From a virus: 30,597 bases of DNA. The position numbers were made by a program, and so were the translations under genes. The stretch covers positions 1 through 30,597 of IMG/VR virus record IMGVR_UViG_3300024343_000074; one strand, given 5' to 3'. Each line of letters opens with the position of its first letter. The stretch's first letter is position 1. The notes beneath the pieces are model-generated. The model was not told the origin of the DNA and did no database searches. It saw only the letters and a list, made by a program, of their open reading frames with translations. Shown here in pieces: positions 4,797 through 22,693 of the stretch.

Positions 4797-5615
4797 TTAC
4801 TTCAGTCCCCTAGGATCTGTAGACCCTGTTTTTATTACAGCTTCCCACCCAGCTAAGTTATCTCTTGTTGTGGCCTCACCTGCGGCGTAATCTCCTAGAT
4901 CTCCCATTCTGAATTCCTCTAAAGACATAGTTACATCTATCTTCCTAGGTAAGAGATTCTTCTTATCATAGCCAGCAAGGGGGTCACTAGTTATATTAAC
5001 GGAGGTTGCTATGCACGGTACGTCTTGAAACATAACTCCATGTGTCAATCTAATTATAGGAGGACCTAAGGATGGATCTTTAGCATTATTTGATACACAA
5101 GTTCTAATAGTATTTACCCAAAACATTACTGTATTTTGAACTGATAGATCTCTTGCTGTATCTGCTATTGAACTAAGTGCAGCAATACTTAAGTCTAATA
5201 AACTAAACGAATCAGTCTCGACATTAACTGCCTTAGCCGAATCGAGAAAACTAGGCGAATCAGGAGTATCTGTTGGGTCTGGAGGTGCTTTAGAGAATTC
5301 TTCTTTAGGATCTTCAATTTGTAAGTCTTTATAGTTTGTCCAACCAACATCATCAATGAGAGACTGTATATGGGGAAGGGTCATGGAAAAAGACAGACTT
5401 AACTTCCTAGAGTCTGCCCCTAAGTAAGCGTATAAGTCTGAAGATCTAGACACTACATTATACTTCTTCCATCTAGCGGACTTAGATTCATCTACTTTTA
5501 TATTCTCAAAAAAAGGAAGTCTTGAAATAGATATATTTCCACCACCTTTGTCGTAATGGAAAGATAATTTAGATCTATTATGTAAGTCTCTATTGTCTTC
5601 TGCTATAGTTTTCAT
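4797..5615 (-). CDS. Tail tube/baseplate junction protein
   Basis: A 272-residue protein. I place the start at the ATG at 5615, which forms a TAATG stop-start overlap with the tape-measure gene. A TTG 15 bases upstream would add five residues and is less likely. Residues about 40-85 (KVDESKSARWKKYNV, then RSSDLYAYLGADSRKLSLSF) match a pattern common in contractile-tail phages: an E-S-x-S-A-x-W segment, a small turn, then an R-x-L-x-L-S-F strand. The C-terminal part (RLTHGVMFQDVPCIATSV, then VTMSLEEFRMGDLGDY) is the second conserved block of that group. Such proteins cap the tube or start tube assembly on the baseplate and may carry LysM-like parts. The family is recognised only by pattern. 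Position between tape measure and gp53-like supports it. Confidence 0.55.
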   Translation of the reverse strand: MKTIAEDNRDLHNRSKLSFHYDKGGGNISISRLPFFENIKVDESKSARWKKYNVVSRSSDLYAYLGADSRKLSLSFSMTLPHIQSLIDDVGWTNYKDLQIEDPKEEFSKAPPDPTDTPDSPSFLDSAKAVNVETDSFSLLDLSIAALSSIADTARDLSVQNTVMFWVNTIRTCVSNNAKDPSLGPPIIRLTHGVMFQDVPCIATSVNITSDPLAGYDKKNLLPRKIDVTMSLEEFRMGDLGDYAAGEATTRDNLAGWEAVIKTGSTDPRGLK

Positions 5616-6877
5616 TATCTCATTACCCAATTAGTTCTAGGTGAGCTTAAGGCTTTAATATTTTGTTTAATATTATTAAAGTTATTATTACTAGTACCGT
5701 TCTCTGTTAACTGGTTAGTTTTATTTACACCATCAGCTATGTCTCTAAGAATTGAAGTATTAGGGTCTGTTTGATTTTTTTGAGGATTTAATTCTCTTTC
5801 GATTGTCACAGCAACCATAGATTTTGATTGAGTTCCTGTTTGAGTTCCTGTTTGAGTTCCTGCTTGAGTTCCTGCTTTCCCTTCTGGGTTAGTGATTGAT
5901 ACGTAGGTAGGATCCCCCGCATGGCCTCCAGTCATACTCTTAGCAAGTCCGTCACCAAAACGTGTAAGATCAAACGTCTCAGCTAGTTTATTACTCAGAG
6001 TGTTTCTTGAGTCTATCTCCTCTGTATTTATCTGTCTGGGTTTAGCCATTGCTATCTCAATAACCTTAGCTACTTCAGTAAGCTCCTTACTTCCAATTGA
6101 CGCAGAGATACCTGATCGTCCATAACCTGCTAAACCCTCCATGTTAAAACTATCGTAAAAGGATCCCCCTTTTTCAACTAGCCTCATTAATGTTTTTTGT
6201 GTTTCTTGTATAGACATATCCCCAGAAAACATCGCATTCACATCGTCAACCATACCTAACGCTGTTAATTGTTTAAGAGTATCGGCATCACTCTTGAATA
6301 ATTTGTTAACAAACTGGTTAACCATTCCTTTATCTTGGGCTCCCATGCCAGCAGTTATCTTTCCAACAGCCGCCACTAGGTTTCCATTAGTTTTTGCTCC
6401 AGAGGCTAAGAGTATAGGAAAACTTTCCTTTAGACCATCAAGACTACTAACCATCTTTTCCATAGAGACTCCATACCTCCTTGAAGTATCAAGCAAAGTA
6501 CTATCCAAACTTCCGATTTCTTGTGAATTCATCCCTAAAGAAAAACCTAAAGATTGGTTTAACTTATGTAGACCTTTTGTATCCTGCCCCAGTAGCTTCA
6601 TCTGGTTGACGACATGAGACATTTCTTCTATGTTGCCTTGGAAACCAGCGTCTAAGATCTCAAACCCTCCAGATAGCTTATCCTTGATAGTTCCTCCAAG
6701 ACCATCCATGCTACTTCCAAGCCTGTCCGTAGCAGTTGAGTAATTCATACCCAACGTCAAAGATGCCTTCTGAGCGTCATCATAGAAAGCTACGGACTCT
6801 GTAACAGCTTCAGTTAACTTACCCATCGCTCCTATACTCGCTTCAATAGCTAATGCTGCTACCATTGGTGCTACCAT
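5615..6877 (-). CDS. Tape-measure-like tail protein
   Basis: A 420-residue, mostly helical protein rich in A, G, S and T, with the scattered pattern seen in tape measures (AAVGKITAGMGAQDKGM, LKQLTALGMVDDVNAMFSG). The N-terminus is hydrophobic and small-residue rich (MVAPMVAALAIEASIGAMG), which may form a membrane-active segment. The C-terminal quarter is low complexity and polar: a GTQ tandem repeat around residues 335-348, then an N/Q/T-rich tail ending TNWVMR. If it is the tape measure, 420 residues at about 1.5 angstrom each implies a short tail near 60 nm. The gene has one of the strongest ribosome sites in the window (AGGGAGGAATAATT before ATG), fitting high expression. It is followed by the tube junction and baseplate genes, the usual order. 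Confidence 0.65.
   Translation of the reverse strand: MVAPMVAALAIEASIGAMGKLTEAVTESVAFYDDAQKASLTLGMNYSTATDRLGSSMDGLGGTIKDKLSGGFEILDAGFQGNIEEMSHVVNQMKLLGQDTKGLHKLNQSLGFSLGMNSQEIGSLDSTLLDTSRRYGVSMEKMVSSLDGLKESFPILLASGAKTNGNLVAAVGKITAGMGAQDKGMVNQFVNKLFKSDADTLKQLTALGMVDDVNAMFSGDMSIQETQKTLMRLVEKGGSFYDSFNMEGLAGYGRSGISASIGSKELTEVAKVIEIAMAKPRQINTEEIDSRNTLSNKLAETFDLTRFGDGLAKSMTGGHAGDPTYVSITNPEGKAGTQAGTQTGTQTGTQSKSMVAVTIERELNPQKNQTDPNTSILRDIADGVNKTNQLTENGTSNNNFNNIKQNIKALSSPRTNWVMR
5828..5875 (-). repeat. Four 12-bp tandem repeats coding GTQ-x
   Basis: Four head-to-tail copies of a 12-base unit (plus-strand TTGAGTTCCTG plus T or C) fill this stretch with only T/C changes. They encode G-T-Q with T or A in the fourth position, inside the tape-measure-like gene. 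Copy number of such an in-frame repeat can change by slippage without breaking the frame. Confidence 0.9.
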
Positions 6878-7460: not shown

Positions 7461-7748
7461 ATGTCAGACGGTACAAGTAGTGAGGTTATGGAGTTCATGG
7501 AACTATTAGACTTCACCTTCAGTAAGCAATTTATAGAGAAGTGGAGACACAGATATAGCGAAAAGATCCTGAAGCATTTTCAGGACAAGATGTTCCAGTC
7601 TGTAAGTAAACAGAAGCCTCTCAAACTGAAAGTACTCTTCAACCATCTTACTAAAAAGTGTAAGTATAGCGAAGAGTACGTTAGTAGTTTACTGCTAGCC
7701 ATAGACATTGATGTCTATAGACCGTTTATTGTTGGGACTATTTCTTAG
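7461..7748 (+). CDS. Small hypothetical protein
   Basis: A 95-residue protein, helical and basic in its middle (EKWRHRYSEKILKHFQDKM), with a C-terminal block KLKVLFNHLTKKCKYSEEYV followed by LLLAIDIDVYRPFIVG. The arrangement of a K-rich helix, then I-D-I-D-x-Y-R-P-F-I, recalls short uncharacterised proteins of T4-like phages, but I cannot name it. One cysteine only, no membrane segment. It stands alone on the plus strand and its last 11 bases overlap the 3' end of the convergent nuclease gene. Translation may be modest: the only upstream Shine-Dalgarno-like bases (AGAAGA) can pair with TCTTCT upstream. Its clean frame and dedicated upstream region support a real gene. Confidence 0.6.
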   Translation: MSDGTSSEVMEFMELLDFTFSKQFIEKWRHRYSEKILKHFQDKMFQSVSKQKPLKLKVLFNHLTKKCKYSEEYVSSLLLAIDIDVYRPFIVGTIS

Positions 7749-8553
7749 ATTTAGTCTCCTTCTCTGCCTTCCTCTTCTGGTCTTTCTCCTCTTTTAGGAG
7801 CTTAAGACTCTCGACTTCCTTACAAACTTCGTCAGGGGAAGCAAACTGAGGGCAAGCCTTCTTGAATTGGCACCAGTTGCAATATTGATTTCTCATTGGA
7901 GTTAGATCCTCCTTCTTAGACTTGCGGATCCTCCACACTTCAGATACTGTCTTCCTGACATATCCAGCTATTTGACCCTTAGAGTACTTTACAGTTACGA
8001 AGTTATTCGTAAGTGGGTAGTAATGGGCTGCTGTGATCTTCTCTACAGGAACGTTCATCATCTTGCTGAGTGCAAAGACGTAACCCATTAGTTGTGGGTC
8101 TTGGTATAGGTCAACTTTGGTCTTCTCCCGTTTAGACGTTTTGTAGTCGATAACGAGTAATCCTCCAGCCTCCCCTGCGATAACACGGTCAATAATACCG
8201 TTACCTAGGATACCATCAGAAAGTTCTACTTCATAACGAAGCTCTTCTCCTACTGATTTTCCAAGCTGAGAGTTGAACTTTAGGAAGTTCTCAAAACACT
8301 TGATATCCTTACCTTCGTAGTCCTTGTGGATTTTATAGTTTCCTTTTACATTCTCAGAATGGCGCACCATCTCCTCTAATGTAGTAGCTTCAACGCCATC
8401 CTCTAAGACTTGGTGAATATAGGAGCCGAAGTGGAGAGCCTTAGTGTTATCTCCATCGGGTTCTGGAAAGTAGTCCACGTACTTATACTTGTACTTCAAC
8501 CTACATTCCTTCCAAACATTGAACTTTGAATTCGAAATTTTATTAATAAACAT
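7738..8553 (-). CDS. Cas4/RecB-like PD-(D/E)XK nuclease with Fe-S cluster motif
   Basis: A 271-residue nuclease with all landmarks of the Cas4/RecB-nuclease family in order: Cys17 (WKEC), a G-x3-H motif (GSYIH, His47), acidic residues E108/E110, D122 in GIIDR, the core D136-Y-K138 (VIDYKTSK), and Q154-x3-Y158 (QLMGY). A C-terminal cluster follows, C225-x2-C228-x5-C234 (CNWCQFKKAC). Cys17 plus these three is the four-cysteine 4Fe-4S arrangement of Cas4 and AddB. The known activity of the family is metal-dependent ssDNA exonuclease cutting. No Cas1 or Cas2 is nearby, so a role in phage recombination, repair or host DNA breakdown is more likely than spacer acquisition. The tail is Lys/Glu-rich. 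It diverges from the primase with touching start codons. Confidence 0.88.
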   Translation of the reverse strand: MFINKISNSKFNVWKECRLKYKYKYVDYFPEPDGDNTKALHFGSYIHQVLEDGVEATTLEEMVRHSENVKGNYKIHKDYEGKDIKCFENFLKFNSQLGKSVGEELRYEVELSDGILGNGIIDRVIAGEAGGLLVIDYKTSKREKTKVDLYQDPQLMGYVFALSKMMNVPVEKITAAHYYPLTNNFVTVKYSKGQIAGYVRKTVSEVWRIRKSKKEDLTPMRNQYCNWCQFKKACPQFASPDEVCKEVESLKLLKEEKDQKRKAEKETKSKK

Positions 8554-9558
8554 ATGAGTTTTTTTGACACAGTAGTCAGTCCTGACTTTATTATAGACTT
8601 CCTAGACCGTGAATTTGGGAACTCAGGCAAAGTTACTTCTAGTGGTGAATACACCATGCCCTCCCCATTTTTAGAGGATGATTGGAAGAATAAGTTCAGC
8701 ATGAATGTTTACACGGGTCTTTGGCAGGATTTTCGTACACACCAGAGCGGAGACTTTGTTAAGTTTTATGCACTCTATTTAGATATCCCTTACTATCTAG
8801 CCAAGCACCGACTCCTTGTACTAAACTTCGGACACTTAGGACTAGAAGATCCAAAAGCCCCTGAAATCGAAGTTTCTGAGGTTGATCCTTTAGCATTAGA
8901 CTGGAGCAAGCTTATTGAGATCCCAGAACTACCAGACTATCTAGAAGGTAAGATGTTGGAGGCGTGGAGTTACCTTTACAGTAGAAAACTAATACTAGGT
9001 AAAGACAAGTATTATTTCTGCACGGAAGGTAGGTTTAAAGACCGTATCATAATCCCCTACTCATACGGGGATAACAACTACTACTTTCAAGCACGATGCC
9101 TTCCTAAGTCAGAGATGTTTCCGAAGTACCTAAACCCCGCTGCTAGTTCTGGAGTTAAATCAAGCCAAGTCCTATACCCTTATGATGAAAGTGCAGACCA
9201 CCTTCTTGTTGTAGAGGGTCCTATTGACGCTAGAACCTTACAGCTACAAGGAGTAAATGCTACTTGCACCCAAGGATCTTATGTATCCAATACACAGATG
9301 CAAGAACTAGCCAACTTTAAAGGTAAGCTTATTATTGGCTATGACAACGACGATGCAGGATGGAAAGGCATAAAGCAGTTTGATTTTCTCCGTAAGAGAC
9401 TAAATCTCCCTACTACGTATATTTGTCACGCCCCTAAGGAATACAACGATTGGAACGATGCTCACTGCGATTTCTTAGACCTAAAAAAATACGTCGAAGA
9501 GAACAGTAATCTCTTCGACGATTTCTATACAATGAAGCGTGAGTTTAACTTACTATAA
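8554..9558 (+). CDS. DNA primase, TOPRIM type (gp61-like)
   Basis: A 334-residue protein, close to the length of T4 gp61 (342). The TOPRIM domain is clear: LLVVEGPID with E221 and a second acidic motif YDNDDAGW (D264, D266, D267) that binds the catalytic metals. Residues about 30-75 align in pattern with the CHC2 zinc ribbon of DnaG-type primases (PSPF, then a strand, then GLWQDF and HQSGDFVKF), but every zinc-binding cysteine and histidine pair is absent, so this domain probably holds its shape without zinc. The protein should make RNA primers for the phage replisome next to a helicase. The ATG directly abuts the ATG of the divergent nuclease (CATATG), and no Shine-Dalgarno precedes it. Its 3' end holds a terminator for opposing transcripts. 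Confidence 0.85.
   Translation: MSFFDTVVSPDFIIDFLDREFGNSGKVTSSGEYTMPSPFLEDDWKNKFSMNVYTGLWQDFRTHQSGDFVKFYALYLDIPYYLAKHRLLVLNFGHLGLEDPKAPEIEVSEVDPLALDWSKLIEIPELPDYLEGKMLEAWSYLYSRKLILGKDKYYFCTEGRFKDRIIIPYSYGDNNYYFQARCLPKSEMFPKYLNPAASSGVKSSQVLYPYDESADHLLVVEGPIDARTLQLQGVNATCTQGSYVSNTQMQELANFKGKLIIGYDNDDAGWKGIKQFDFLRKRLNLPTTYICHAPKEYNDWNDAHCDFLDLKKYVEENSNLFDDFYTMKREFNLL
8588..8595 (-). promoter_or_regulatory. Candidate -10 box (TATAATAA) for nuclease gene
   Basis: On the minus strand TATAATAA ends 34 bases before the nuclease ATG, inside the coding sequence of the primase. It resembles the TATAATAG boxes heading other minus units. No -35-like element is obvious. The two divergent starts touch, so any promoter for one gene must lie inside the other. 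Confidence 0.35.
9483..9520 (-). terminator. Intrinsic terminator for leftward transcripts, inside primase gene
   Basis: A perfect 11-bp stem (CGTCGAAGAGA at 9492-9502 with TCTCTTCGACG at 9510-9520) and 7-base loop. Read on the minus strand it is followed by UA then seven U (9489-9483), the classic intrinsic form. It lies 25 bases past the stop of the leftward structural gene and codes for part of the primase C-terminus on the other strand. Read on the plus strand there is no U tract. Confidence 0.85.
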
Positions 9559-10489
9559 AGTAAAACGGCTTTGTAATGATTGTTTCATTAACCAAGTTAT
9601 ACTTAGCAGTTAATCTATAGGTTCCCACGACCCCACCAAAATCTGCGATGTTAGCGTGTGTAGCTAGTTGGGTGGAATCAAACAACATAGACATTGTGTT
9701 ATCTGAAGTTATCTCAATTAGAGAAGACGTATCGGAATAACCAGAAACTTCAACCTTGGCAGGAAGCGACACGGCATCTTCATTGATTTTTTCAATCTTG
9801 TACATACCAGACACGATTGCTGAATCTTTGAAGATGTTTTTCGTGGCTTCGTCAATATCCTTGTTCTCTATCGTTACATTAGTGGTTACTTTCATATTAA
9901 CTTTAGAGTCCAAAGTAACATGCTTAGTCGTTAATTGATTAGTAGCCGTTACAAGGAAAGGTTGTGTTGTCATAATGACAGTATCACTATACAGGTGAAA
10001 CTTATCAATCATAGACTGAGGAGAAGAGTTAGAGAACATTTGTACAGTCCAAATATCCGTGTAATCTAGTACTCCTGAAGCACCATTCTCGATCTCAAGA
10101 GAACTTCCGTAAAGATTATAAACACCACTTGTGTCTGGTTCTAAAACAGCTACGTACTTACCTACACCCGTTCGATAAACACCACTAGGGGATGCATCGT
10201 CAGAAGGTACGTACTTAGATTCATCTATAGCTCCTCCAGCCTCAACAGCAGAAGGAGCAAAGTGCATTAGGATAAGGTCAGTATCTACATTAGGAGAGAT
10301 AAGACCTGTATCTGTATCCAACACTGAGGAAGGAGACATATTAGACGTAGCTGCAAATACCGTAACCCCGCTGATTGCATAAGGGTCAAAGTACTCACCG
10401 TTGTTAGTAAAGTACGCTCTTAAGCCTACTCTTTGTAGAGTTGATGGTCTGTTATGACGATCCGTAAATTCAGTTCCATTAAGTTGCAT
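9545..10489 (-). CDS. Virion structural protein, beta-rich, unknown
   Basis: A 314-residue protein rich in S, T, V and D with no cysteine. N-terminal residues 1-60 include RVGLRAYFTNNGEYFDPYAI, a pattern that looks like the start of a beta-sandwich. The middle has short strands separated by G/S turns. The last about 75 residues (VEVSGYSDTSSLIEI, then GTYRLTAKYNLV, FYFIVS) read like an Ig-like fold. It follows the gp26-like gene: its ATG lies within the last bases of the frameshifted extension, with a GGAG ribosome site, so the two are cotranslated. I do not recognise the family. Position suggests a baseplate, neck or decoration component. The gene ends 14 bases inside the convergent primase gene and is followed by a strong terminator. 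Confidence 0.7.
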   Translation of the reverse strand: MQLNGTEFTDRHNRPSTLQRVGLRAYFTNNGEYFDPYAISGVTVFAATSNMSPSSVLDTDTGLISPNVDTDLILMHFAPSAVEAGGAIDESKYVPSDDASPSGVYRTGVGKYVAVLEPDTSGVYNLYGSSLEIENGASGVLDYTDIWTVQMFSNSSPQSMIDKFHLYSDTVIMTTQPFLVTATNQLTTKHVTLDSKVNMKVTTNVTIENKDIDEATKNIFKDSAIVSGMYKIEKINEDAVSLPAKVEVSGYSDTSSLIEITSDNTMSMLFDSTQLATHANIADFGGVVGTYRLTAKYNLVNETIITKPFYFIVS

Positions 10490-10649
10490 TGTTGCGCTCC
10501 GTTTCTTCGTTAAGTAGTTTGAGGAATGTAGTCCTCTCAGTCCTCGTCATGCTCCTAACATCGGAATATGAGAAATTAACCTTACTTACAAGTATATAGG
10601 CTTCATGTAATAAAGAATCTACATCTAGTATCTCCTCTAGTTCACGCCA
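10479..10649 (-). CDS. C-terminal extension of gp26-like protein reached by -1 frameshift
   Basis: A frame of 56 codons continues past the gp26-like stop in the -1 frame and has no ATG, GTG or TTG before its middle. The first in-frame ATG would leave only about 23 residues. The predicted peptide starts WRELEEILDVDSLLHEAY and ends LLNEETERNNAT. It is helical, with an M-x3-E-R motif (MTRTER) like that in helical chaperone-type extensions of other phage tail proteins. A slip on G-TTT-TTT (10655-10649) would fuse it to residue 241 of the zero-frame protein and give 297 residues. Its stop overlaps the start of the next gene by 11 bases, filling a 147-base gap. A sequencing indel in the T run is the main alternative. 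Confidence 0.65.
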   Translation of the reverse strand, partial: WRELEEILDVDSLLHEAYILVSKVNFSYSDVRSMTRTERTTFLKLLNEETERNNAT

Positions 10650-11371
10650 AAAAACCCTGAATCAATCGGAAGTTCGATGACGCTAGTTTTAGAGCACTCT
10701 GGGCAGTTAAATTGGATCTTAGTCTCTACACCATAATCGAGTGCCATAGCATTAATTAAGGTTTTAGAATCTCTAATAGGTATACCTTTGATGAAACCAC
10801 TCTTGACGATAGTGTCTGTATGTCCATCAACTGACACTACAAACCTCCAAAGATTGGAGTAGATATCCTTGAGGTACTTATCGTCCTTAACTCTAGGGAT
10901 ACGAATAACTACAGTCCTTTTAGATACAGGAAGATCTACTGTTACAGTATCTGTGAAATCGTCTGGGACAGGATTTACGACTAGATCTGAGATATTAAAT
11001 ACAGACTTAGTTTCAGCACCACAATGGTTACAAGCTATAGTTGGGTGGTAATCTGCTCCATAAGAGATTTCTCTGACCTTAAGAAGTAAGAAAATTTTGT
11101 CCATTGATAAAAGATTACCAATCTGAACATTAGGAACACATCTCTCTAAAAGCAAGTTTGACCCATCTTCCCCCCTAGTTGAGGCAATAAGCTTCTCGTC
11201 TTCAAAGGTAACTGGTCTAATAGTTACAGGTTCGTCTGTTGGGAGGTCTGGGTAGACTCTACACTCGGAGGGGAGGTCTACCTTTATTGAAGTATCTTGA
11301 GGAAGATTACTTAGAAGCTCATCAATAATCTCTTGTTTAGCGAGGTTAGCCGCACTGTTGTTTTCTAGCAT
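10637..11371 (-). CDS. Baseplate hub subunit, gp26-like (T4_baseplate family)
   Basis: A 244-residue protein with the features of the T4 gp26-type baseplate family: an N-terminal LPSECRVYPDLP strand, a central helical part (LLSMDKIFLLLKVREISYG, residues about 87-105), and a zinc-ribbon made of C114-x2-C117 (CNHC) and C223-x2-C226 (CPEC). It ends in a strand leading to DSGFF just before the stop. In T4 this protein takes part in hub assembly. The zero frame ends GVN-stop immediately after a run of six T, and the -1 frame continues for 56 codons, so a frameshift product is likely. It is the first gene of a short leftward unit. A TATAATAG box lies 26 bases upstream and there is no Shine-Dalgarno. 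Confidence 0.82.
   Translation of the reverse strand: MLENNSAANLAKQEIIDELLSNLPQDTSIKVDLPSECRVYPDLPTDEPVTIRPVTFEDEKLIASTRGEDGSNLLLERCVPNVQIGNLLSMDKIFLLLKVREISYGADYHPTIACNHCGAETKSVFNISDLVVNPVPDDFTDTVTVDLPVSKRTVVIRIPRVKDDKYLKDIYSNLWRFVVSVDGHTDTIVKSGFIKGIPIRDSKTLINAMALDYGVETKIQFNCPECSKTSVIELPIDSGFFGVN
10649..10655 (-). promoter_or_regulatory. Putative -1 ribosomal frameshift site (G TTT TTT)
   Basis: On the coding strand the zero frame reads GGG-TTT-TTT-GGC-GTG-AAC-TAG. The A-site tRNA could re-pair perfectly after a one-base backward slip on the six-T run, while the P-site tRNA would re-pair with one mismatch. The slip leads into the 56-codon -1 frame. AGGG lies just upstream and GAGGAG lies downstream of the stop, but I see no strong pseudoknot by eye. 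Confidence 0.5.
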
Positions 11372-11393
11372 AATTTTTAGTTAGTTTTGTGGT

Positions 11394-11405
11394 TAGACTA
11401 TTATA
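11394..11405. promoter_or_regulatory. Shared 12-mer TAGACTATTATA, bidirectional -10 box
   Basis: The 12-mer is identical to the one at 28596-28607. Read rightward it gives TATTAT, ending 5 bases before the GTG of the helicase. Read leftward it gives TATAATAG, 26 bases before the ATG of the gp26-like gene. The whole intergenic region is 38 bases. No -35 element is visible in either direction. Confidence 0.6.
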
Positions 11406-11409
11406 GTAT

Positions 11410-12789
11410 GTGGAAATTATAGTACAGACTCAAAAATCTAAGATTGTAACCGATAATCCAAAGCTACTAAAAGCCTTGTGTGACTTATATACGTTCAAAG
11501 TACAAGGTGCCTCTTTTTCTCCTTCCTACAGGAGAGGACACTGGGATGGTAAAAAAAGGTTTATTACAAAGAAAGGGTCATTCAGGTCAGGACTTCTACC
11601 TAGAATACTCAAAGATCTAGGAAAGATTGAATGTTATCCAAAAATAACGTACACGGATAAAGCTAACACCCCTCCAGACCTAGATACTATAGAAGGTTTT
11701 ACTTACTACGACTACCAAGAAGTTTTAATTAACCGAGCTTTGGAGTCAGGCAGAGGAGTGATAAAGTCTCCAACAGGGTCTGGAAAAACCCTAATCATGG
11801 CTGGGCTAATCAAATCCTTGATTGGTCGAAAGATGGTTATATTATTCAATGCAAAACAACTACTAACACAGACTTATGATTTTCTTACTGAAACTTGCGG
11901 GATGGATAACGTTGGTCTTTGTTATGGTGAGGGTTATATTGATGGGGATATTATGCTTTGTACTGTCCAAAGTATTGAAAAAATCCTAGACAAGTACTTA
12001 GACACTGCTGAAGTACTTATGGTTGATGAATGTCATGAGTTCTGTTCTGGGAAAATAACTCTCCCAGCCATACAAGCATTTACTAACGCAACTTATAGGT
12101 TTGGTTTTACCGCAACAACCCCTTCTGAACCAGAAAAGCTCTATGCTTTAGAGGGAGCATTAGGGGAAATCATAGAAGAGTTCACCACCAAAGATCTTAT
12201 TGAACAAGGAACACTAACAAAACCTTATGTTAGACTTATAGAAAGAGAGTATTCCGCAGACGGAAGAGACGAGGATCTAGGGTATATGGGGGTATACGAT
12301 GATTACATTGTACAAAACTTAGAACGCAATCAGATAATAAAGGAAGTAGTAGATGATATCAGATCAAAAAACAAAAAAGCAAGAATCCTTATCCTTACAA
12401 AAAGCCTTTCCCACGGAAGACTTATACAAGAATCACTCGGAGGTGGGGTTGAGTACTTGGAAGGCGCAAACTCATTGGGAGAGCGATACGAGTCTATTGA
12501 TAAGTTTAAACAGGCTGACGGAAACTCAGTTCTTATTGGTACGAAGATACTTCAGACTGGTGTAAATATCCAAGAAATCACACACTTTATTAACGCTAGA
12601 GGGATGAAGTCCGAAGTTGCGACTATCCAAGCGTTAGGACGAGCCTTGCGTAAACACGAAACAAAAACAGAGGTTATTGTATACGACTTCTTAGACAAGG
12701 AGAAGTACTTAAAAAGCCACTCTAACCTAAGAAAAAAACACTACAAAAGTGAAGGACACGATATAGAAATAATCAAATGGAAAAATTAA
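11410..12789 (+). CDS. uvsW: UvsW-like superfamily 2 DNA helicase
   Basis: A 459-residue SF2 helicase with motifs in order: a Q-like motif YDYQ (Q103), Walker A SPTGSGKT (120-127), DECH (206-209), TAT (234-236), and motif VI QALGRALRK (407-415). The N-terminus (FSPSYRRGHWDGKKRF, about 36-51) matches the small DNA-binding domain that precedes the helicase core in T4 UvsW (503 residues). UvsW unwinds R-loops and branched DNA and regresses forks, shutting off origin-dependent replication late in T4 infection. The same role is inferred here. The start is GTG at 11410: the ATG two bases earlier meets a stop at once. No Shine-Dalgarno exists, and the promoter-like TATTAT ends 5 bases upstream. The last 13 bases overlap a UvsW.1-like gene. 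Confidence 0.9.
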   Translation: MEIIVQTQKSKIVTDNPKLLKALCDLYTFKVQGASFSPSYRRGHWDGKKRFITKKGSFRSGLLPRILKDLGKIECYPKITYTDKANTPPDLDTIEGFTYYDYQEVLINRALESGRGVIKSPTGSGKTLIMAGLIKSLIGRKMVILFNAKQLLTQTYDFLTETCGMDNVGLCYGEGYIDGDIMLCTVQSIEKILDKYLDTAEVLMVDECHEFCSGKITLPAIQAFTNATYRFGFTATTPSEPEKLYALEGALGEIIEEFTTKDLIEQGTLTKPYVRLIEREYSADGRDEDLGYMGVYDDYIVQNLERNQIIKEVVDDIRSKNKKARILILTKSLSHGRLIQESLGGGVEYLEGANSLGERYESIDKFKQADGNSVLIGTKILQTGVNIQEITHFINARGMKSEVATIQALGRALRKHETKTEVIVYDFLDKEKYLKSHSNLRKKHYKSEGHDIEIIKWKN

Positions 12790-13732: not shown

Positions 13733-14782
13733 TTATAAATGTCCTATGAATGTAGTATTTGCTACGTTATTAATTAGACTAAAATCGCAAATAGACAAAG
13801 CTCCCTCTCCCGCTTGACCAGTATAACTTCTTTTAGATCTAATTGTAGTGCTGTTTAAAACTTGAGTATTCCAAGCATTTCTTCCAAATGCTGCACCTGT
13901 TCCGTTACAGGAGTTTGTAAACCAGACGATTGTTGCTCCTGTATCCATGACTAAAGAGGGTGTTGTATCTTTTACGCTATCTGTATTTGCCATAACTGGA
14001 GTTCTCTGCTCACAACAATCTTCAGGAAATGTTACTAACTGCCAAGCAATATCTGACACATAAGCGTTTGTTTGATCATACCTTTTTAGAAGAATGTCAG
14101 TACTATCAAATCTAACTCTCATAGAACATTGCTCTAAGCCATTAGACGAGTGACGAGCTTGACTAAAACACCACGTGTTAGTTGTTGTTATACCAGTTAC
14201 TCCGTGAGAAAAAGACAATTCGCTGGCTGCTCCTACAGTAACGGAGGCTGTACCTTTTTCAACAGTCACACCACTCTCTAGACTCCACTCAATAGCCTCC
14301 CAAAAAACGTAAGTACGTGTGGTTGAGGTTGCGTTTCTAGTTCCTGTAAGTAAAACAGAAGTAGTATATTCAAGTGTAGCAAAACCAAGGTTAGAAGATC
14401 CTGTACCGAAATTACCTCTGCTTCCATAAATAAGCATAGTTCTGTTGGGGTCACTTTCTGCAACATCGGATGTACCTGTAGTACTTCCAGTAGAGATAGT
14501 AGTTGTTCCTCGACCTACAACTAAAAATTCTGACTGATCACAAGTAACAACAGTCCAAGTTACTTGGGCATCCGCAACGCCTCCGTCTCGCTGAATAGTT
14601 AAGGTAGTACTATCTGTCAGCTTTCCGTGAACGCCCCAAGACTGATACCCAGAACTACCCGTTGCAGTATTCGTACTAGAATCAATAATAACGAAGGATC
14701 TATTTAGATCTACCTCGGTTATTGTAATAGTGTCTGAATCAGATGATAGTACAGCCTCACCTTTCTGAACTGAAATAGCCAT
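13733..14782 (-). CDS. Fibre-associated structural protein with internal duplication
   Basis: A 349-residue S/T-rich beta protein. The N-terminus (VQKGEAVLSSDSDTITI) and a point near residue 175 (VEKGTASVTVGAAS) start similarly and are each followed by strands ending in W- or C-containing turns, suggesting two related domains. The second half has several cysteines (TWCFSQARH, EQCSMRV, EDCCEQRT, TNSCNGT, SICDF), rare in this phage, which may bind metal or form disulfides on the finished particle. The ATG overlaps the stop of the 1268-residue fibre gene as TAATG, so the two are coupled and probably interact at the fibre tip or adhesin. No family is recognised. Tail fibre tip, adhesin or fibre chaperone are the options; the beta-rich composition disfavours a chaperone. 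Confidence 0.65.
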   Translation of the reverse strand: MAISVQKGEAVLSSDSDTITITEVDLNRSFVIIDSSTNTATGSSGYQSWGVHGKLTDSTTLTIQRDGGVADAQVTWTVVTCDQSEFLVVGRGTTTISTGSTTGTSDVAESDPNRTMLIYGSRGNFGTGSSNLGFATLEYTTSVLLTGTRNATSTTRTYVFWEAIEWSLESGVTVEKGTASVTVGAASELSFSHGVTGITTTNTWCFSQARHSSNGLEQCSMRVRFDSTDILLKRYDQTNAYVSDIAWQLVTFPEDCCEQRTPVMANTDSVKDTTPSLVMDTGATIVWFTNSCNGTGAAFGRNAWNTQVLNSTTIRSKRSYTGQAGEGALSICDFSLINNVANTTFIGHL

Positions 14783-17700
14783 TATCCCATTGCGGGTCCA
14801 AAGCCGCCCTGATACGTAGTACCATTCCAGTAGAACGTGTGTAGATCGTTTGCATCAGCTACTGTGCTGTAGGTAGGTGACCCACTTCTAGGGTACTCTA
14901 TTGAGGGTAGAGTTAGTGCTCTCCCTCCTGTTGCGTCCTGTTTTACATTTAATACCAACATAGCAGTCCCTTGGGTAGGAGCAGTAAATGTTAACGTAAT
15001 AGCTGCTGCACCAAGTGTAATCTCTTGGTGATTACCGTCATTCCAGTCAATAGTAGTTGCTCCTGTAACCGTACCTTTGTTTACTAGAGCGTCGGTCCCT
15101 ACAGACTTAGTAGCTAATTTCTCTCCTACAAGCAATGCTAAAATCTCAGCAGCAGTTTGGTCTGCTGTAGCACTATCCTCCATGAGAGCAACCCTTCCGA
15201 GTGCAGTCAAAATAACATTGTACTGAGCGGCTGCTAAAACACCTGCTAATGATCCAGTAACTGCGGGTATCTCGGTGTTTGTTCCTGTACTACTTTCTAT
15301 AGTAACCGTAGATGCACCTACAGTTTTAGAGAGATCCGTATCTACATTAACTTCTGCTGCTGCTTCGATACCATCTAACTTAGCTTTATCAGCACCAGTC
15401 AATAATCCTGCCGCAGTTGTAGCTATAGCAGCAGGTATAGTAGCATTCGTACCTGTGTTGGAGTTTACGTCTACGGTTGTAGTTGTAGTAGTACCTATTG
15501 ATAGGTTAGTAGTTCCTCCACCACCACCCCAAGAAGCAGAGTTATCAAATACAGTAGAAGATACTCCTTCTGCTAGACCTTGATTTGTAGTTACTAAAGA
15601 ACTTAGAGCAAGGTTTGTAGCACTTAAAGTGTATTGGGGGTGATCATCACCTCCAAGACCTCCTATAGAACCGTGATCAATAGACGCTTCAGTAAAGTGA
15701 AGAGTTGAGTCAGCTATGTGGCTATCAATAGCTGTATGAGAATTACTGCCAATGTTAGATAGTGCCGTATGGTCAGTAGTATCTGTATCGGTATAATTTC
15801 CTGAATGTATATTGGTTGCACCTTGATCGACAGTCCAGTCGATATGTTCATCAGCTACAAATCCAGTTAAGTCATCGTGAGTAAAATCTGAACTAACGTA
15901 AGTAGTATCTGTGTTATTATCAACATAGTTAGAAGCATGAATTGTACCAGCACCCGCCTGTGTCCAATCGATATGTTCATCAGCTACAAATCCAGTAAGA
16001 TCATCGTGAGTAAAATCAGAACTTACATAAGTAGTGTTTGTATCTGTGTAGTTTCCTGCATGAATATTAGTAGCACCTTGGTCTTGTGTCCAGTCAATAT
16101 GCTCATCAGCTACAAAACCAGTTAAGTCATCGTGAGTAAAATCACTGGAGACATAAGTAGTGTTTGTATCTGTGTAGTTTCCTGCATGAATATTAGTAGA
16201 CCCTTGATCAACAGTCCAATCGATATGCTCGTCAGCTACAAAGTTTGTTAAAGAATCATGATCGAAATCACTAGAAACATAAGTAGTGTCTGTGTTGTTG
16301 TCAACATAGTTTGAAGCATGGATAGTACCAGCACCTGCTTGTGTCCAGTCAATATGCTCATCAGCTACAAAACCAGTTAAGTCATCGTGAGTAAAATCAC
16401 TGGAGACATAAGTAGTGTTTGTATCTGTAGCCCAAGAAGCAGAGTTGTCAAATACTGTAGAGGATACTCCTTCTGCTAGACCTTGGTTCGTAGTTACTAA
16501 AGAACTAAGAGCTAGGTTGGTAGCACTTAAAGTGTACTGAGGATGGTCATTATCAGATAGTCCCGTTAGTCCTCCGTGGTCTGAACTTCCTGAACCTAAA
16601 TCAGCAATACTTTGAGCAGTTACTGTTTTTATCTTGTTTGAATCATCTGCATCTTGAATAACAACTTTATCCCCCGTAGCTACAGTAGCAGAGTCTAAAC
16701 TAGCTCCGTCAAGAGCGGATACTACGTTCGCTTCATTAGCAGTAACTTTGGCAGTGTTAGCTGCTACATTAGTATTATTGCTTACTTCGGTGTCAAAGTC
16801 ACTAATAGTTGATGTAGTTTGTGTTCCTGTATGATTTCCCCTTGCTAAGAGTGTTGCGTCGGAAGAGTTAGCCGTTGAACCATCCTCCACGTTAATCAAG
16901 GAGCGAACATCAGAATCACTCAACCCTTCTATCTGCGTTCCTCCAGAAGAAAGTCTTCCTAAGATCTCGTTTGTTCCTAAAGAAACCATAGTTGGAGATC
17001 CCGTACCACTCTGTTGAACTAAAAGTCCGTGGGCTGGGGTAAAGTCAGATTCCATAACCGCACCAGCAGAACCCCAAGAAGCAGAGTTATCAAATACAGT
17101 AGAGGATACTCCCTCACTTAGACCCTGATTCGTAGTTACTAAAGAACTAAGAGCTAGGTTGGTAGCACTTAAAGTGTACTGAGGGTGATCATCATCCGCT
17201 AATCCAGTAAAAGCTCCGTGGTCTGTTGTGTTTGTATCAATAGACCAAGTGCTTGAGTTATCAAATACTGTAGAGGATACTGTTGTCCAAGGTCCTGTAC
17301 CTGTAACAGATACGTCACCGTCTACCTCTAATCCTGTACCGTTAATAAGTTTAAGATCCGTACTTGTTAGTCTGGCTACAATAGTTTGTGAACCATCTTT
17401 TTGGTTAGCAAACTCAAGAAGTCCGTCTTCAGTTGAGTTTGTAACATCGGAAGTTTTAGCAGTAACTTTAGAGTAAGTTACTTCACCTCCTGTAGAGTTC
17501 TTCCCTTTAAATTTTATTTGACCAAGATAGTCTCCATCTGCTGGACTATCGGAGTCCCTATCAAGAGATAACACAGGACCTGCAAGTGAACTATCAACAT
17601 CAGTATTTAGGGTTAGAACATTTCCTGTATTTGTGTCAACGTCTCTAGAGATAGTTACCCCACCCGTAACATCTCCTCCAGAAAGAGGTAAGTAGTCGCC

Positions 17701-18588
17701 CTCTGACCAAGATCCAGAGTTGTCAAAGACTGTAGAAGATACTGCTTCCGTTAAACCTTGGTTAGTAGTTACTAAGGAACTAAGAGTTAAGTTAGTTGCG
17801 CTAAGAACATACTGAGGATGATCGTCATCCGCTAATCCAGTAAAAGCTCCATGATCAGTTGTGTTAGTGTCTGTAGCCCAAGTTGAGGAGTTGTCGAATA
17901 CTGTTGAAGATACTCCCTCACTTAAGCCTTGATTTGTAGTTACTAAAGAACTTAAAGCAAGGTTAGTAGAACTTAAAGTATATTGAGGATGGTCGTTATC
18001 TCCTAAGCCACCAATAGAACCATGATCAATAGATGCTTCAGTAAAGTGAAGGGTTGAGTCAGCTATGTGGCTATCAATATCTGTATGCGTGTTACTACCA
18101 ATGTTTGATAGTGCCGTATGGTCAGTAGTGTTTGTATCCGTAGACCAAGTACTTGAGTTATCGAATACTGTAGAAGAGACTCCTTCTACAAGACCTTGAT
18201 TTGTAGTTACTAGTGAGCTAAGAGTTAAATTAGTTGCGCTAAGAACATACTGAGGATGATCATCATCCGCTAAACCAGTTAAAGTTCCGTGATCGGAAGT
18301 CCCTGCTCCCCAAGAACTAGAGTTGTCGAATAATGTTGAGGACACATCCTCTACAATGCCTTGGTTCGTAGTTACTAAAGAACTTAAAGCTAAATTAGTA
18401 GAACTAAGAACATATTGAGGATGGTCATTATCAGCTAATCCAGTTAGAGTTCCGTGATCAGAAGTCCCTCCCCCTCCACCAGTCTCGTTTGCAGGAATCC
18501 ACTCATTAGCAGAAGAATCGTACTTTACAATTTGTCCATCAGTAGCTCCACTCTGATGGATCATGTTTAATTTTGATTTACTAGGCAT
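14782..18588 (-). CDS. Long repetitive tail fibre protein
   Basis: A 1268-residue fibre built of repeats. An N-terminal segment (residues 1-40) leads to a GGGGG linker and then seven copies of a unit of about 50 residues with DHPQY, LSSLVTTNQG and VSSTVFDNS. The H-x-x-L-x-x-L-x-x-D-D-H-P-Q-Y pattern is well known in phage tail fibres. Between copies 6 and 7 are five tandem units of about 42 residues marked by TTYVSSDF and ADEHIDWT. The C-terminal part has TGADKAKLDGIEA, another common fibre motif, and ends in a compact beta domain (NVKQDATGGRALTL, then TFYWNGTTYQGGFGPAMG) likely to bind the receptor or cap the trimer. It is probably the long tail fibre shaft. No self-cleaving chaperone domain is seen. 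Confidence 0.85.
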   Translation of the reverse strand: MPSKSKLNMIHQSGATDGQIVKYDSSANEWIPANETGGGGGTSDHGTLTGLADNDHPQYVLSSTNLALSSLVTTNQGIVEDVSSTLFDNSSSWGAGTSDHGTLTGLADDDHPQYVLSATNLTLSSLVTTNQGLVEGVSSTVFDNSSTWSTDTNTTDHTALSNIGSNTHTDIDSHIADSTLHFTEASIDHGSIGGLGDNDHPQYTLSSTNLALSSLVTTNQGLSEGVSSTVFDNSSTWATDTNTTDHGAFTGLADDDHPQYVLSATNLTLSSLVTTNQGLTEAVSSTVFDNSGSWSEGDYLPLSGGDVTGGVTISRDVDTNTGNVLTLNTDVDSSLAGPVLSLDRDSDSPADGDYLGQIKFKGKNSTGGEVTYSKVTAKTSDVTNSTEDGLLEFANQKDGSQTIVARLTSTDLKLINGTGLEVDGDVSVTGTGPWTTVSSTVFDNSSTWSIDTNTTDHGAFTGLADDDHPQYTLSATNLALSSLVTTNQGLSEGVSSTVFDNSASWGSAGAVMESDFTPAHGLLVQQSGTGSPTMVSLGTNEILGRLSSGGTQIEGLSDSDVRSLINVEDGSTANSSDATLLARGNHTGTQTTSTISDFDTEVSNNTNVAANTAKVTANEANVVSALDGASLDSATVATGDKVVIQDADDSNKIKTVTAQSIADLGSGSSDHGGLTGLSDNDHPQYTLSATNLALSSLVTTNQGLAEGVSSTVFDNSASWATDTNTTYVSSDFTHDDLTGFVADEHIDWTQAGAGTIHASNYVDNNTDTTYVSSDFDHDSLTNFVADEHIDWTVDQGSTNIHAGNYTDTNTTYVSSDFTHDDLTGFVADEHIDWTQDQGATNIHAGNYTDTNTTYVSSDFTHDDLTGFVADEHIDWTQAGAGTIHASNYVDNNTDTTYVSSDFTHDDLTGFVADEHIDWTVDQGATNIHSGNYTDTDTTDHTALSNIGSNSHTAIDSHIADSTLHFTEASIDHGSIGGLGGDDHPQYTLSATNLALSSLVTTNQGLAEGVSSTVFDNSASWGGGGGTTNLSIGTTTTTTVDVNSNTGTNATIPAAIATTAAGLLTGADKAKLDGIEAAAEVNVDTDLSKTVGASTVTIESSTGTNTEIPAVTGSLAGVLAAAQYNVILTALGRVALMEDSATADQTAAEILALLVGEKLATKSVGTDALVNKGTVTGATTIDWNDGNHQEITLGAAAITLTFTAPTQGTAMLVLNVKQDATGGRALTLPSIEYPRSGSPTYSTVADANDLHTFYWNGTTYQGGFGPAMG
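15530..18475 (-). repeat. Seven dispersed DHPQY repeats in the fibre gene
   Basis: Seven units of about 150 bases encode DHG, a G-L turn, DHPQY, then LSSLVTTNQG and VSSTVFDNS. Spacers differ between units. One extra VSSTVFDNS half-unit lies near 17250, and an eighth DHPQY block occurs in the next fibre gene upstream (near 23420-23500). Stretches of more than 50 identical bases occur, for example near 16490 and 17131. Confidence 0.85.
15780..16425 (-). repeat. Five tandem about 126-129 bp repeats in the fibre gene
   Basis: Five consecutive units, each coding TTYVSSDF, ADEHIDWT and then one of two endings: AGAGTIHASNYVDNN or a DQG-containing TNIHAGNY type. Unit edges fall near 15900, 16028, 16155, 16280 and 16410. 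The stretches 16083-16173 and 16338-16428 are identical over 91 bases, which points to recent duplication or gene conversion. Confidence 0.85.
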
Positions 18589-18619
18589 AATATCTTTTTA
18601 AGTTGAGGAGTGAGTTGTT

Positions 18620-21600
18620 TTAAGTAAGACCGGGAAGGGTTACGTTTTCAATATCGTTAGACTGCATGTTAGTGAACTGCATCTTGGTCCAGTTTTGGTC
18701 AGCAGGGTAAATGTAGTTTCTGATGCCGTTAGAGTAAGAGTCACTAGTACCGTCACCCATCAACCAGATTTGAGTAGCTTTGTAGGCACTAGAAGAGTTT
18801 GATCCCCAAGAAGAGGTGGAACCGCTAGTAGGTAAACGGAAATCCTCACCAGACTTGAAGTTAGCATACCACTTCACTGGGTCTGTGATCATCTTATCAA
18901 CCTCGTTAGTAGTAGGCAGAGTCTGAGCTTGTCTAAGCGTAGTAACAAGACAGCTAGCAACCTTACCATAGAAGTTGAGGTTTGAACTTCGTCCACCAAC
19001 AGTGAAGTCTCCATCAAAAGTCCTATCCATTCTGTTTCCAGTGGTTATCCAGTTAGATGTTGTAGATAAGTTGTTACCTACTGAAACGAAAGAGTCTGCA
19101 CTACTCATTAAACGAATGTCAAAGCAGTCAGCTAAGTTAGCTGCGGAAGCGTTATTACCTCCTAAGCGTTCACCAGAGTGAGCAATATAAACACCATACC
19201 AGTTAGAGGATGAGATAGTCTGGTTAGCAAATCTACACTCGTTGTATCCCACACCTTCACGACCCCATCCGAACATCAAACTGCCAACAGAAGTTAGTCT
19301 TAGATAGATATTATCGTTGTTACTTGAAGATCCTTCTCCTTGGTTCCAGATAATCTGGTTACTGCTGCTACCATCGGATTTAAATACAACAGCAGTAGCC
19401 CAAGGTCTAGAACTACTTGAGTTAGATGTATCACCCTGAGTAGATGTGCCCATACCAACTTGATTGGCAAGACCCTGCATCTGAATAGGTTGGTAGTACA
19501 TGCTGTTACTAACTTGCTTTGTGTACTCGTTTCCGCCAGTGAAGTCAAGAGCTTTAGTCCAAGGCGTATCATTTGCAGCTACGTTGTTAGTAGGATCATC
19601 AGTAATGGTTAGGCTAATCGTGCCTGTATCACTTCCAAACGCATTAGCTTTAGTTACATTTAAAGTATAGGAAACATCTACACCGTCAGTAATAGTTTCA
19701 GCGGTTCCGACAATAGCATAACCAGTGTCTGCATAGCCTGTAGGAATGTTAGTTACGTTATAAGTATCCGTATCACCTGCTGGCTTGTATACAAGGTTAA
19801 CTGCACTCTGCTCTTGAATTGTGTAGGTAAGGTCATTAAAGGTAGGTACATAGTTAGAATCTACGTCAGTGTTCTGAATGTTCCAAACAACATTTTCAGA
19901 GGTTCCATAAACACCATGAACAGGAGCAGCAGAAGCACTTGTAACACCTAAAGTAGTAGGTTTATACCAAGTTATACCTTCTAGATCGTCTACATACGTG
20001 TGCTGGGTACTAGTTCCAGATCCACCGTTAGCTGTATCAAAGTCATTAGCTTCTGATTCATCTTTAAACAAGGGGTAATGGAACTCAGTGTCAGGTGACT
20101 CAATGTAGTAGAAAGCAGCAGTAGTTGTTGTTGCACCACCAGAAACACCTATGTCAGACTCTAAGAACTGCTTATATTCTATTAAATCCATGTTAAATGC
20201 ACCATTAAGAGAGTCATTCATCGTGGACAGGTTAGATCCAGCCACAACTCCGTTAACGTAAACGTTGCCTAAAGTGCAGTCTCTAAGCTGGATTTTATCA
20301 CTAGCCTTCTGGATAATGTCTACAGAGTTAGTTTTAAGTACTGACTGTAGCTCGTTAACACCATAAACATTAATAACATTACCTCCGACTCCTTCTCTAA
20401 GAGAGATCGTCTGCTTTAAAGTATCTACAACTACATCAACCTCAGGAACTTCCATTACGTGGTTAGAGAACGGTAGCTCACTGTAGTTTCCTAGTAGAGG
20501 AGCTTTAACAGCACTCTCACCTATAGTCATATAGGAGTTGTCACCTAAAGCAACACGTAAGTTAGTTAATTCTACCTCACTGAAGTCGATAGCGTAATCT
20601 TGACCGATAAAGCCAACGTCATCAACCTTAATAATATTTTTATCGTTGTCAGGTAATCCTCCAACATTAGAAGTAATCAAGAATCCTATCCTGTCTGTGT
20701 TGGAACCAAGACCTGTGTAGTGTACTTGAGTGTCTAGAATCTCTGCGATGAATCTAGCATCAGAGTTTAGAGTAATCGTAGTACCTAGTAGGTTGTAGTT
20801 TTCGTTGATCTGTATAGATGCTTTAGCGTCACCTGTGTTTCCAATACCATTGTACACAGATCGGTTGTTATCATATAAACCACAATCTCTTAAAGTAGCA
20901 TTTGCTGATCCCCAAGCACAAAATCCAGCGTTCCAATTACCATTAACTTCATTCTGGCTGAACTTGTTATTGATACCACCAATACAAAGAAGACCATTAT
21001 TAGCGTTATAAGAGGTTACGTTCATGGTAGTCGTAATGTTATGAGAACCAAGTAAACTGCCAGCAGCAATATAAATACCAGATTCGATGTTCTTAGTTGA
21101 AACGTTACGAGTAATAAACCCTGCTCCACCAATACCACAATCCTGAATACGTAGTCCACGTAGGTTCTCAAGAGCTACATTACCAATCACACGGATGTTC
21201 GTAATGTTCTCGATACGCATAGCTCCACCGTTAGAAGCATTAGCTCCTGCATAAAATGCTTGCAAAGTAGAAGCACTTGAGTCATAGCCAGCGATACCCG
21301 TAGTAGCCGTAGGTAAGACAGTATCTAATCCTGTACCATTCCACCCGTTATGTGTAAACGTACAATCTGTGATATTAATATATGCAGCTTGGACAATCTT
21401 GAGAGCGTACTCACCAGCGTTGCTAAAAGCTATATTTTTGAAGGTAAATGACTGTGTATTAGCCGATCCAGTGAACTTTAGTATATTACCATTAGCTGCG
21501 TCATAAGTAGAGTAACGGATCTCAGAACCATCGATTCCGTAGAAACTGAGGGAATGAGGTAGGACGATTTCTGCTGTTACATTATTAACTCCTTTAACGA

Positions 21601-22693
21601 AGATCTTGTTCCCCGATGAGGAGGCGTTGACAGCTTCTAAGATAGTAGTGTAAGGAGCAAGGTTAGTTCCTGCTCCAGTACCAGCAAACGTAGGGTCAAC
21701 ATATAAGTCGTAGAATCCAACTACGTCAATACTATCTAAATCCTCAGTGAAAGCAATATTCTTATCTTCATAGCTTCGGTTAGCCACGGTAGTCTGATAA
21801 CGATTAGTTCCGTCATCACCTTCGCATACAAGAAGTAGACCAACATCAGTACCGTCTGCTGCTACTTTAGTAATAGAAGCGTGGTTAGTAGATCCACCAT
21901 TAACGTCTAGAGGGTGATCAAAGGTCCATGAGAGAGGTTGATTAACTGATAGACCACTGTGCTCTAAGAATTGTTGATATACTGGAGTACCGTCAACGGA
22001 TAGCTCGTACCTAAGCATTACATTAGAAGCAACTATTTCAGCTACAACTGTCGTAATACCCATTCCTGAGATGTTAGCAGGAAAGTAGTTATCACCATCA
22101 TAAGCAATAGAAGTTCCCGTAACAGGATTTCCACCAAGAGATAATACACCGTAAGCACCGAACACTCTTCCTGTGGGGTTATAAACACCACTCATGTCTT
22201 GGTTAGCTGATAAGGACTGATCCTTAATACCACCCCAAGCAGGATACCAATTAACCTCTGTAGTGAGGTTAGTAAAGTAAATATTCTCAGAACCAGAACT
22301 CATCTTATGTTGGTCACCAAGATATAATGAGTTTAGTGTTGTCTCAAAGGGCTTATCTGCCTGAATTCTACCTGTAATACTGTTGTATACGAAGTGTTCC
22401 CATGTATCAGCCCTAGACATATCATTGGCCGCAACATTAATATAATCTACACAAGAAGATACATCCGTAAAAGAACCCCCACTTACGTCAACAAAGTCTG
22501 TAAAAGGAATCTGAAATAGTTCGTACTTGTCAGACCCTGAAGATTCTGTTGTTATAGTGTTAATTATGTTTACAGTATTGGTAACTGAAGTATCTGGAAT
22601 AGCACTTACAGTAGTATTTGGGTAAGAAGGACGCTCTGCTCCATGTAGGACTATACAGTTGCCTGCAACACTATGCTCAATTCTAATAGACAT
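18620..22693 (-). CDS. Large tail protein: beta-helix, Ig-like and lectin-like domains (putative receptor binding)
   Basis: A 1357-residue protein, the largest here. Residues about 340-760 show the pattern of a right-handed beta-helix: VDPTFAGTGAGTNLAPYTTI, the usual entry strand, then repeated short N/G-rich turns (KNIAFSNAGEYALKI, INITDCTFTHNG, IRVIGNVALENLRG). About residues 980-1070 resemble a bacterial Ig/cadherin-like module (YTLNVTKANAFGSDTGTISL). The C-terminal part (about 1090-1300) has the run of strands typical of LamG/concanavalin-like domains (WATAVVFKSDG, LMFGWGREG, WYGVYIAHSG), which bind sugars. The order stalk, hinge, lectin suggests a tailspike or adhesin that recognises host polysaccharide. 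No catalytic residues for depolymerase activity can be assigned by eye. An AGGAG site lies 13 bases before the ATG. Confidence 0.8.
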   Translation of the reverse strand: MSIRIEHSVAGNCIVLHGAERPSYPNTTVSAIPDTSVTNTVNIINTITTESSGSDKYELFQIPFTDFVDVSGGSFTDVSSCVDYINVAANDMSRADTWEHFVYNSITGRIQADKPFETTLNSLYLGDQHKMSSGSENIYFTNLTTEVNWYPAWGGIKDQSLSANQDMSGVYNPTGRVFGAYGVLSLGGNPVTGTSIAYDGDNYFPANISGMGITTVVAEIVASNVMLRYELSVDGTPVYQQFLEHSGLSVNQPLSWTFDHPLDVNGGSTNHASITKVAADGTDVGLLLVCEGDDGTNRYQTTVANRSYEDKNIAFTEDLDSIDVVGFYDLYVDPTFAGTGAGTNLAPYTTILEAVNASSSGNKIFVKGVNNVTAEIVLPHSLSFYGIDGSEIRYSTYDAANGNILKFTGSANTQSFTFKNIAFSNAGEYALKIVQAAYINITDCTFTHNGWNGTGLDTVLPTATTGIAGYDSSASTLQAFYAGANASNGGAMRIENITNIRVIGNVALENLRGLRIQDCGIGGAGFITRNVSTKNIESGIYIAAGSLLGSHNITTTMNVTSYNANNGLLCIGGINNKFSQNEVNGNWNAGFCAWGSANATLRDCGLYDNNRSVYNGIGNTGDAKASIQINENYNLLGTTITLNSDARFIAEILDTQVHYTGLGSNTDRIGFLITSNVGGLPDNDKNIIKVDDVGFIGQDYAIDFSEVELTNLRVALGDNSYMTIGESAVKAPLLGNYSELPFSNHVMEVPEVDVVVDTLKQTISLREGVGGNVINVYGVNELQSVLKTNSVDIIQKASDKIQLRDCTLGNVYVNGVVAGSNLSTMNDSLNGAFNMDLIEYKQFLESDIGVSGGATTTTAAFYYIESPDTEFHYPLFKDESEANDFDTANGGSGTSTQHTYVDDLEGITWYKPTTLGVTSASAAPVHGVYGTSENVVWNIQNTDVDSNYVPTFNDLTYTIQEQSAVNLVYKPAGDTDTYNVTNIPTGYADTGYAIVGTAETITDGVDVSYTLNVTKANAFGSDTGTISLTITDDPTNNVAANDTPWTKALDFTGGNEYTKQVSNSMYYQPIQMQGLANQVGMGTSTQGDTSNSSSSRPWATAVVFKSDGSSSNQIIWNQGEGSSSNNDNIYLRLTSVGSLMFGWGREGVGYNECRFANQTISSSNWYGVYIAHSGERLGGNNASAANLADCFDIRLMSSADSFVSVGNNLSTTSNWITTGNRMDRTFDGDFTVGGRSSNLNFYGKVASCLVTTLRQAQTLPTTNEVDKMITDPVKWYANFKSGEDFRLPTSGSTSSWGSNSSSAYKATQIWLMGDGTSDSYSNGIRNYIYPADQNWTKMQFTNMQSNDIENVTLPGLT

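Follow-up and report, generated by a model that had tools for sequence, protein, structure and literature searches.

A probable tail assembly chaperone pair encoded in two reading frames by a gp26-like gene of a viral contig

Layout of the locus

We analysed a stretch of viral DNA of 30,597 nt (IMG/VR record IMGVR_UViG_3300024343_000074), the whole of which is referred to as the window. The locus considered here is on its minus strand and consists of a gene for a protein similar to gp26 of phage T4 and of a second open frame that continues past the stop of this gene (Table 1). The 244-residue protein ends in ...LPIDSGFFGVN, encoded by GAT TCA GGG TTT TTT GGC GTG AAC TAG. The preliminary description of this DNA had placed the end of the gp26-like frame three codons after GGG-TTT-TTT, which the sequence GGC GTG AAC TAG bears out.

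Precisely, the -1 frame runs from a TGA (10664-10662) through TTC AGG GTT TTT TGG CGT GAA CTA ... to a TAA (10481-10479), and it is open across both the T run and the zero-frame stop. Counted from TGG (10649), it contains 56 sense codons, corresponding to the residues WRELEEILDVDSLLHEAYILVSKVNFSYSDVRSMTRTERTTFLKLLNEETERNNAT, and ATG, GTG and TTG are absent from it until an ATG that is 23 codons from its end. The ATG of the next gene (10489) is inside the last codons of the extension, and a similar MQLNG... start overlaps, or comes after, the end of the extension in most of the relatives. The coordinates and the description given beforehand for this frame (no usable start, 56 codons, overlap with the next gene) hold, with one trivial correction: the TGA, which had been put 11 bases upstream of the heptamer, is really 6 bases before its G (10655).

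Table 1. Features of the locus, with positions in the window
Feature	Position	Strand	Basis or remark
Predicted TAC-N, zero-frame protein of 244 aa, gp26-like, with two CxxC pairs	10637..11371	-	PF12322, PHROG 150, 64 other distinct relatives
Candidate slippery site G TTT TTT (zero-frame GGG TTT TTT GGC)	10649..10655	-	sequence; T run in 65/65 distinct sequences
Zero-frame stop TAG, end of the short form	10637..10639	-	sequence
Predicted TAC-C, extension in the -1 frame (56 codons, then TAA), homologue of short 'gp51' in T4-like phages	10479..10649	-	open frame, pN/pS, profiles
TGA shortly before the slippery site, closing the -1 frame	10662..10664	-	sequence
Possible but weak stem-loop shortly after the site	10611..10639	-	z scores, alignment pairing
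Next gene, 314 aa, no family match	9545..10489	-	start overlaps extension end by 11 nt

As regards the wider window, nuclease-like (-), primase-like (+) and helicase-like (+) genes, named by reading of the sequence alone, are found at 7738-9558 and 11410-12789. The nuclease-like and the primase-like genes sit between the putative chaperone region and the baseplate genes, and the helicase-like gene is upstream of the chaperone gene; the tail genes are therefore interrupted by replication genes. Two very long genes of 1268 and 1357 aa on the minus strand occupy 14782-22693, the first with repeated DHGTLTGLADDDHPQYVLS-type units, and they are probably tail fibre genes.

Conservation of the T run and of the extension

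Relatives of the gene were collected from viral contigs by a protein search (n = 40) and by a profile search (n = 80). The profile-search set, together with the window, represented 65 distinct genes, i.e. 64 distinct relatives other than the window. The 64 relatives share ancestry and are not 64 independent events, yet they are widely divergent, with an identity to the window of about 40-52%.

A run of at least six Ts just before the stop was present in 65/65 distinct sequences, and in the same 65/65 the -1 frame was open for about 50-63 codons past the stop. The phase of the run was T TTT TTC or T TTT TTT in 64/64 other relatives, and in the window alone it was one base later (G TTT TTT). Likewise, the canonical X XXY YYZ heptamer was present in 64/64 other relatives and absent in the window, in which X is G. 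As a control, we considered the Phe-Phe dipeptides elsewhere in the same loci, and just 9/107 of them were coded by NNT TTT TTY. The exact pattern GGNTTTTTTGGNGTNANYTAG, which has the phase of the window, had 5 matches in viral contigs, with no gp26 relative among them, and a blastn search of 9500-11500 against phages returned no match.

For the extension, the median pN/pS was 0.31 when it was read in the -1 frame vs 0.96 and 1.63 in the other two frames, and for the pairs that include the window the value in the -1 frame was 0.38. The differences between the window and its relatives in the extension were distributed as 1034 at third, 572 at first and 353 at second codon positions. In the zero frame, the synonymous codon identity was about 0.37-0.50 along the gene and rose to 0.62 and then 0.96 over the final two blocks, in which the two frames overlap. 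The -1 extension is under purifying selection, and the occurrence of the T run together with the -1 extension is confirmed as far beyond chance.

The preliminary description had proposed to look in each homologue for the T run, the -1 frame and a conserved extension, and all of these were found in 64/64 other distinct relatives. It had also named the observations that would speak against it, i.e. an extension in the zero frame with no T run, or an extension without conservation; the first was found in no relative of the group of the window, and the second is at odds with the low pN/pS of the -1 frame. Its claim of a programmed -1 frameshift leading into a 56-residue extension with a charged tail is thus strongly supported by the comparison with the relatives. 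An assembly indel in the window was also considered, and it is excluded because no relative of the group carries the extension in the zero frame; run length and out-of-frame extension are the same in the relatives.

Protein families and proposed decoding

The 244-residue protein belongs to PF12322 T4_baseplate (E = 3.6e-16, 60 bits vs a cut-off of 24.5, residues 43-236) and matches PHROG 150 (E = 1e-19), a family that is named 'baseplate hub' in the databases after T4 gp26. An AlphaFold2 model of this N part had a pLDDT of 73 and a pTM of 0.43. Foldseek found no meaningful match of the model in the PDB, a PDB sequence search with the family profile found no match, and in the solved structures gp27 was found and neither T4 gp26 nor T4 gp51 was.

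For the extension, 21/22 members of the family matched PHROG 634 ('baseplate hub assembly catalyst' in the database) at E <= 1, the best at 2.4e-4, and the extension profile matched a profile of the gp51 C-domains from twelve T4-like phages with E = 1.9e-8. The window's own extension had no match to PHROG 634; it retains the conserved residues E-L, AYILV, F-Y-DV and MTR-ER. When the extension HMM was run against the six-frame ORFs of the reference loci, gp51 of S-PM2 was at the top (E = 0.0066), and the link to T4 rests on the PHROG profiles because T4 gp51 obtained just E = 1.3. In fact, the match of T4 gp51 (locus L047, 5480-6229) to PHROG 150 spans the whole protein and the match to PHROG 634 lies at its C end, so that T4 has the long form as a fused gene beside gp26; judged by these alignments, gp51 is a gp26 paralogue that carries the C-domain as a fusion.

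The preliminary description had seen here a baseplate protein made in two forms, outside the textbook case. This reading is not supported, since gp26 and gp51 are listed as hub assembly chaperones by Leiman et al. 2010 (PMC3004832), where gp51 is absent from the particle and the evidence for gp26 in the hub is conflicting; the arrangement is rather the textbook G/GT case. The accompanying remark, that the extension was in the style of the frameshifted tail-assembly chaperones, was right more literally than claimed, the extension being a gp51-like C-domain. Like genes of the G/GT type, the window gene has a conserved out-of-frame C-terminal extension, with its entry point close to where the first frame ends. 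We consider it very probable that the gene at 10637-11371 and its extension encode a TAC-N/TAC-NC pair of tail assembly chaperones (TAC) via -1 frameshifting, and we infer a chaperone role in this phage. The two-form gp26/gp51 chaperone is of an already known kind, under a misleading database name.

TAC genes usually lie between the tail tube and the tape measure genes, and the gp26-like gene of LIS04 and SP-15 is in this place. In S-PM2, a large unnamed gene is directly after gp51. In the window, the gene after the putative chaperone gene has no family match (Table 1) and no recognisable tape measure gene is directly downstream; a candidate tape measure gene (5615-6877), itself with no convincing family match, is several genes away.

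In the mechanism that we propose, most ribosomes would stop at the TAG (10637) and produce the TAC-N, and some would move one base back on the six-T run and read 56 more codons to the TAA (10479), producing a TAC-NC of roughly 297 residues with a gp51-like C-domain at its end and the junction ...S-G-F-F-W-R-E-L... By analogy with lambda gpG/gpGT, the tape measure protein would be the target of both forms in tail assembly, and both would leave before maturation. The relatives would use ordinary two-tRNA slippage at T TTT TTC. In the window, where the run appears to have moved by one base to G TTT TTT, slippage would more likely depend on the re-pairing of a single Phe tRNA. Two kinds of slip are conceivable: that of two tRNAs, in which the P-site Phe tRNA would re-pair with GTT, and that of a lone tRNA, which would go from the second TTT to TTT while the A site holds GGC; the protein would be identical in either case. 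GGC is the rarest Gly codon in the genes of the window (36/579), and a rare codon next to the T run could favour the slip of a lone tRNA. From the sequence, its conservation, the selection and the homology to gp26 and gp51, all of which are shown, we infer the slippage itself, its ratio and the tRNA detail.

A possible stem is located about 8 nt downstream of the site in most relatives (CTAGAAGAAG...CTTCTTCTAG), with z down to about -4 and a median of -1.8; in the window it is weak (z = -1.36). It was 82.9% paired in the alignment vs at most 57.6% when slid. No covariation beyond that of shuffles was found in the relatives, and RNAalifold, with 21 sequences, returned no consensus structure; pairing without covariation may therefore partly reflect coding constraint.

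The same two proteins could be produced if RNA polymerase, and not the ribosome, slipped on the T run. A homopolymer run is indeed present, and a polymerase would be indifferent to the changed phase of the window, but the phase T TTT TTY is kept in 64/65 sequences, a regularity that is accounted for by a ribosomal mechanism but not by polymerase slippage, and six Ts are short for the latter; we regard it as improbable. It is a little less probable still that the frameshift is weak or lost in this phage, with G TTT TTT as a degraded heptamer and the extension as a relic. The window is the sole sequence with its phase among the 65 and its stem is weak, but its extension is still open and keeps the conserved residues listed above, its differences from the relatives are mainly at third positions, and GTTTTT motifs are reported at the TAC sites of other phages (PMC12846349). 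Least probable of all is that the extension is a separate small gene with its own start, as in the cyanophage 'gp51' annotation, and that the T run is incidental: databases do list the C-part as a gene, and a -1 frame ATG is at or just after the zero-frame stop in S-PM2, P-RSM4, Ps15, K571 and K444, but no ATG, GTG or TTG precedes the conserved core in 49/65 distinct sequences (window included), the starts of the remaining 16/65 are scattered and unconserved, with a Shine-Dalgarno-like site in just 4/16, the T run is conserved, as is its phase, and T4 gp51 is a natural N-C fusion.

Comparison with known systems

Ribosomal -1 frameshifting, as preferred here for the window, has its nearest parallel in the gp26/gp51 pair of cyanophages and other T4-like phages (PF12322/PHROG 150 + PHROG 634), which has, like the window, a gp26-like protein, a six-T run before the stop and, in the -1 frame, a C-domain whose core is F/Y-S...M-x-x-x-ER. 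In S-PM2, gp26 ends in CAG TCT TTT TTC GCA TAA, and the -1 frame that directly follows is annotated as gp51, with 57 residues. S-PM2 differs from the window in its T TTT TTC site, its strong stem (z = -4.36) and its annotatable ATG; in the window the site is G TTT TTT, the stem is weak and a usable start is absent. The series gp26, T run (T TTT TTC or T TTT TTT) and -1 'gp51' is also found in S-RIM4, Melnitz-1, VmeM-32, ACP17, Ps15, Aeromonas phage 65, K571, OLIVR5 and P-RSM4, and in K444 the -1 C-domain comes after a run of only five Ts. In Ps15, K571 and K444 the ATG of the -1 C-domain overlaps the zero-frame stop (TAATG or TGATG type). Because of this overlap, and of the five Ts of K444, a separate coupled initiation may replace or accompany frameshifting in these three phages.

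T4 gp26 and gp51 have the N domain of the window protein and gp51 ends in the same C-domain; the difference is that the short and long forms come from two separate genes. In SP-15/LIS04/GXN1-like phages, 29/29 loci with a complete end have a gp51-like C-domain after gp26 that is read in the +1 (or -2) frame. The shift region of these loci is around GAR TTT TTT CGT CCN or GAA TTA TTY AAT CCC AGT, and the candidate shift site TTT C fits most of the loci, not all. The case is about evenly balanced for a single family with at least three routes to the long form (-1 at T TTT TTY, +1/-2 in the SP-15-like phages, fused genes in T4), in which the site of the window has moved to G TTT TTT, where a two-tRNA slip is impossible without a mismatch. 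The fused gene of T4 and the -1 and +1 solutions, in one family, would offer a natural series on the gain, move and loss of frameshifting.

Frameshifting in tail-assembly chaperones is already well known, and we consider the finding a good annotation correction, not a surprise. It corrects widespread misleading names ('baseplate hub' for gp26 and 'hub assembly catalyst' for gp51, with the C-part either unannotated or given as a separate gene), and it supports the view that many uncultured T4-like phages have a two-form chaperone. The remaining interest is in the moved slippery site of the window and in the sister group with the +1 frame.

The slippery sequence of lambda is G GGA AAG, different from that of the window. 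Like the window as we read it, lambda gpG/gpGT and other TAC frameshift pairs have a short form and a frameshifted long form of a tail assembly gene (Xu et al. 2004, as cited through PMC10885494). Vladimirov, Gautam and Davidson 2022 are reported to have identified the TACs of T4-like phages. According to PRFect (PMC10885494), which cites them, some T4-like phages do without frameshifting and have a short gene plus a long fused one. Poly-T slippery sites in T4-like TAC-N genes are attributed to Vladimirov et al. 2022 through PMC12846349. The TAC locus of Pseudomonas phage Adele and other Vandenendeviridae (PMC12846349) is from a different phage family; it has, like the window, a conserved -1 frame and a GTTTTT motif ending TAC-N, and the same motif is reported at TAC sites in both Vandenendeviridae and Andersonviridae.
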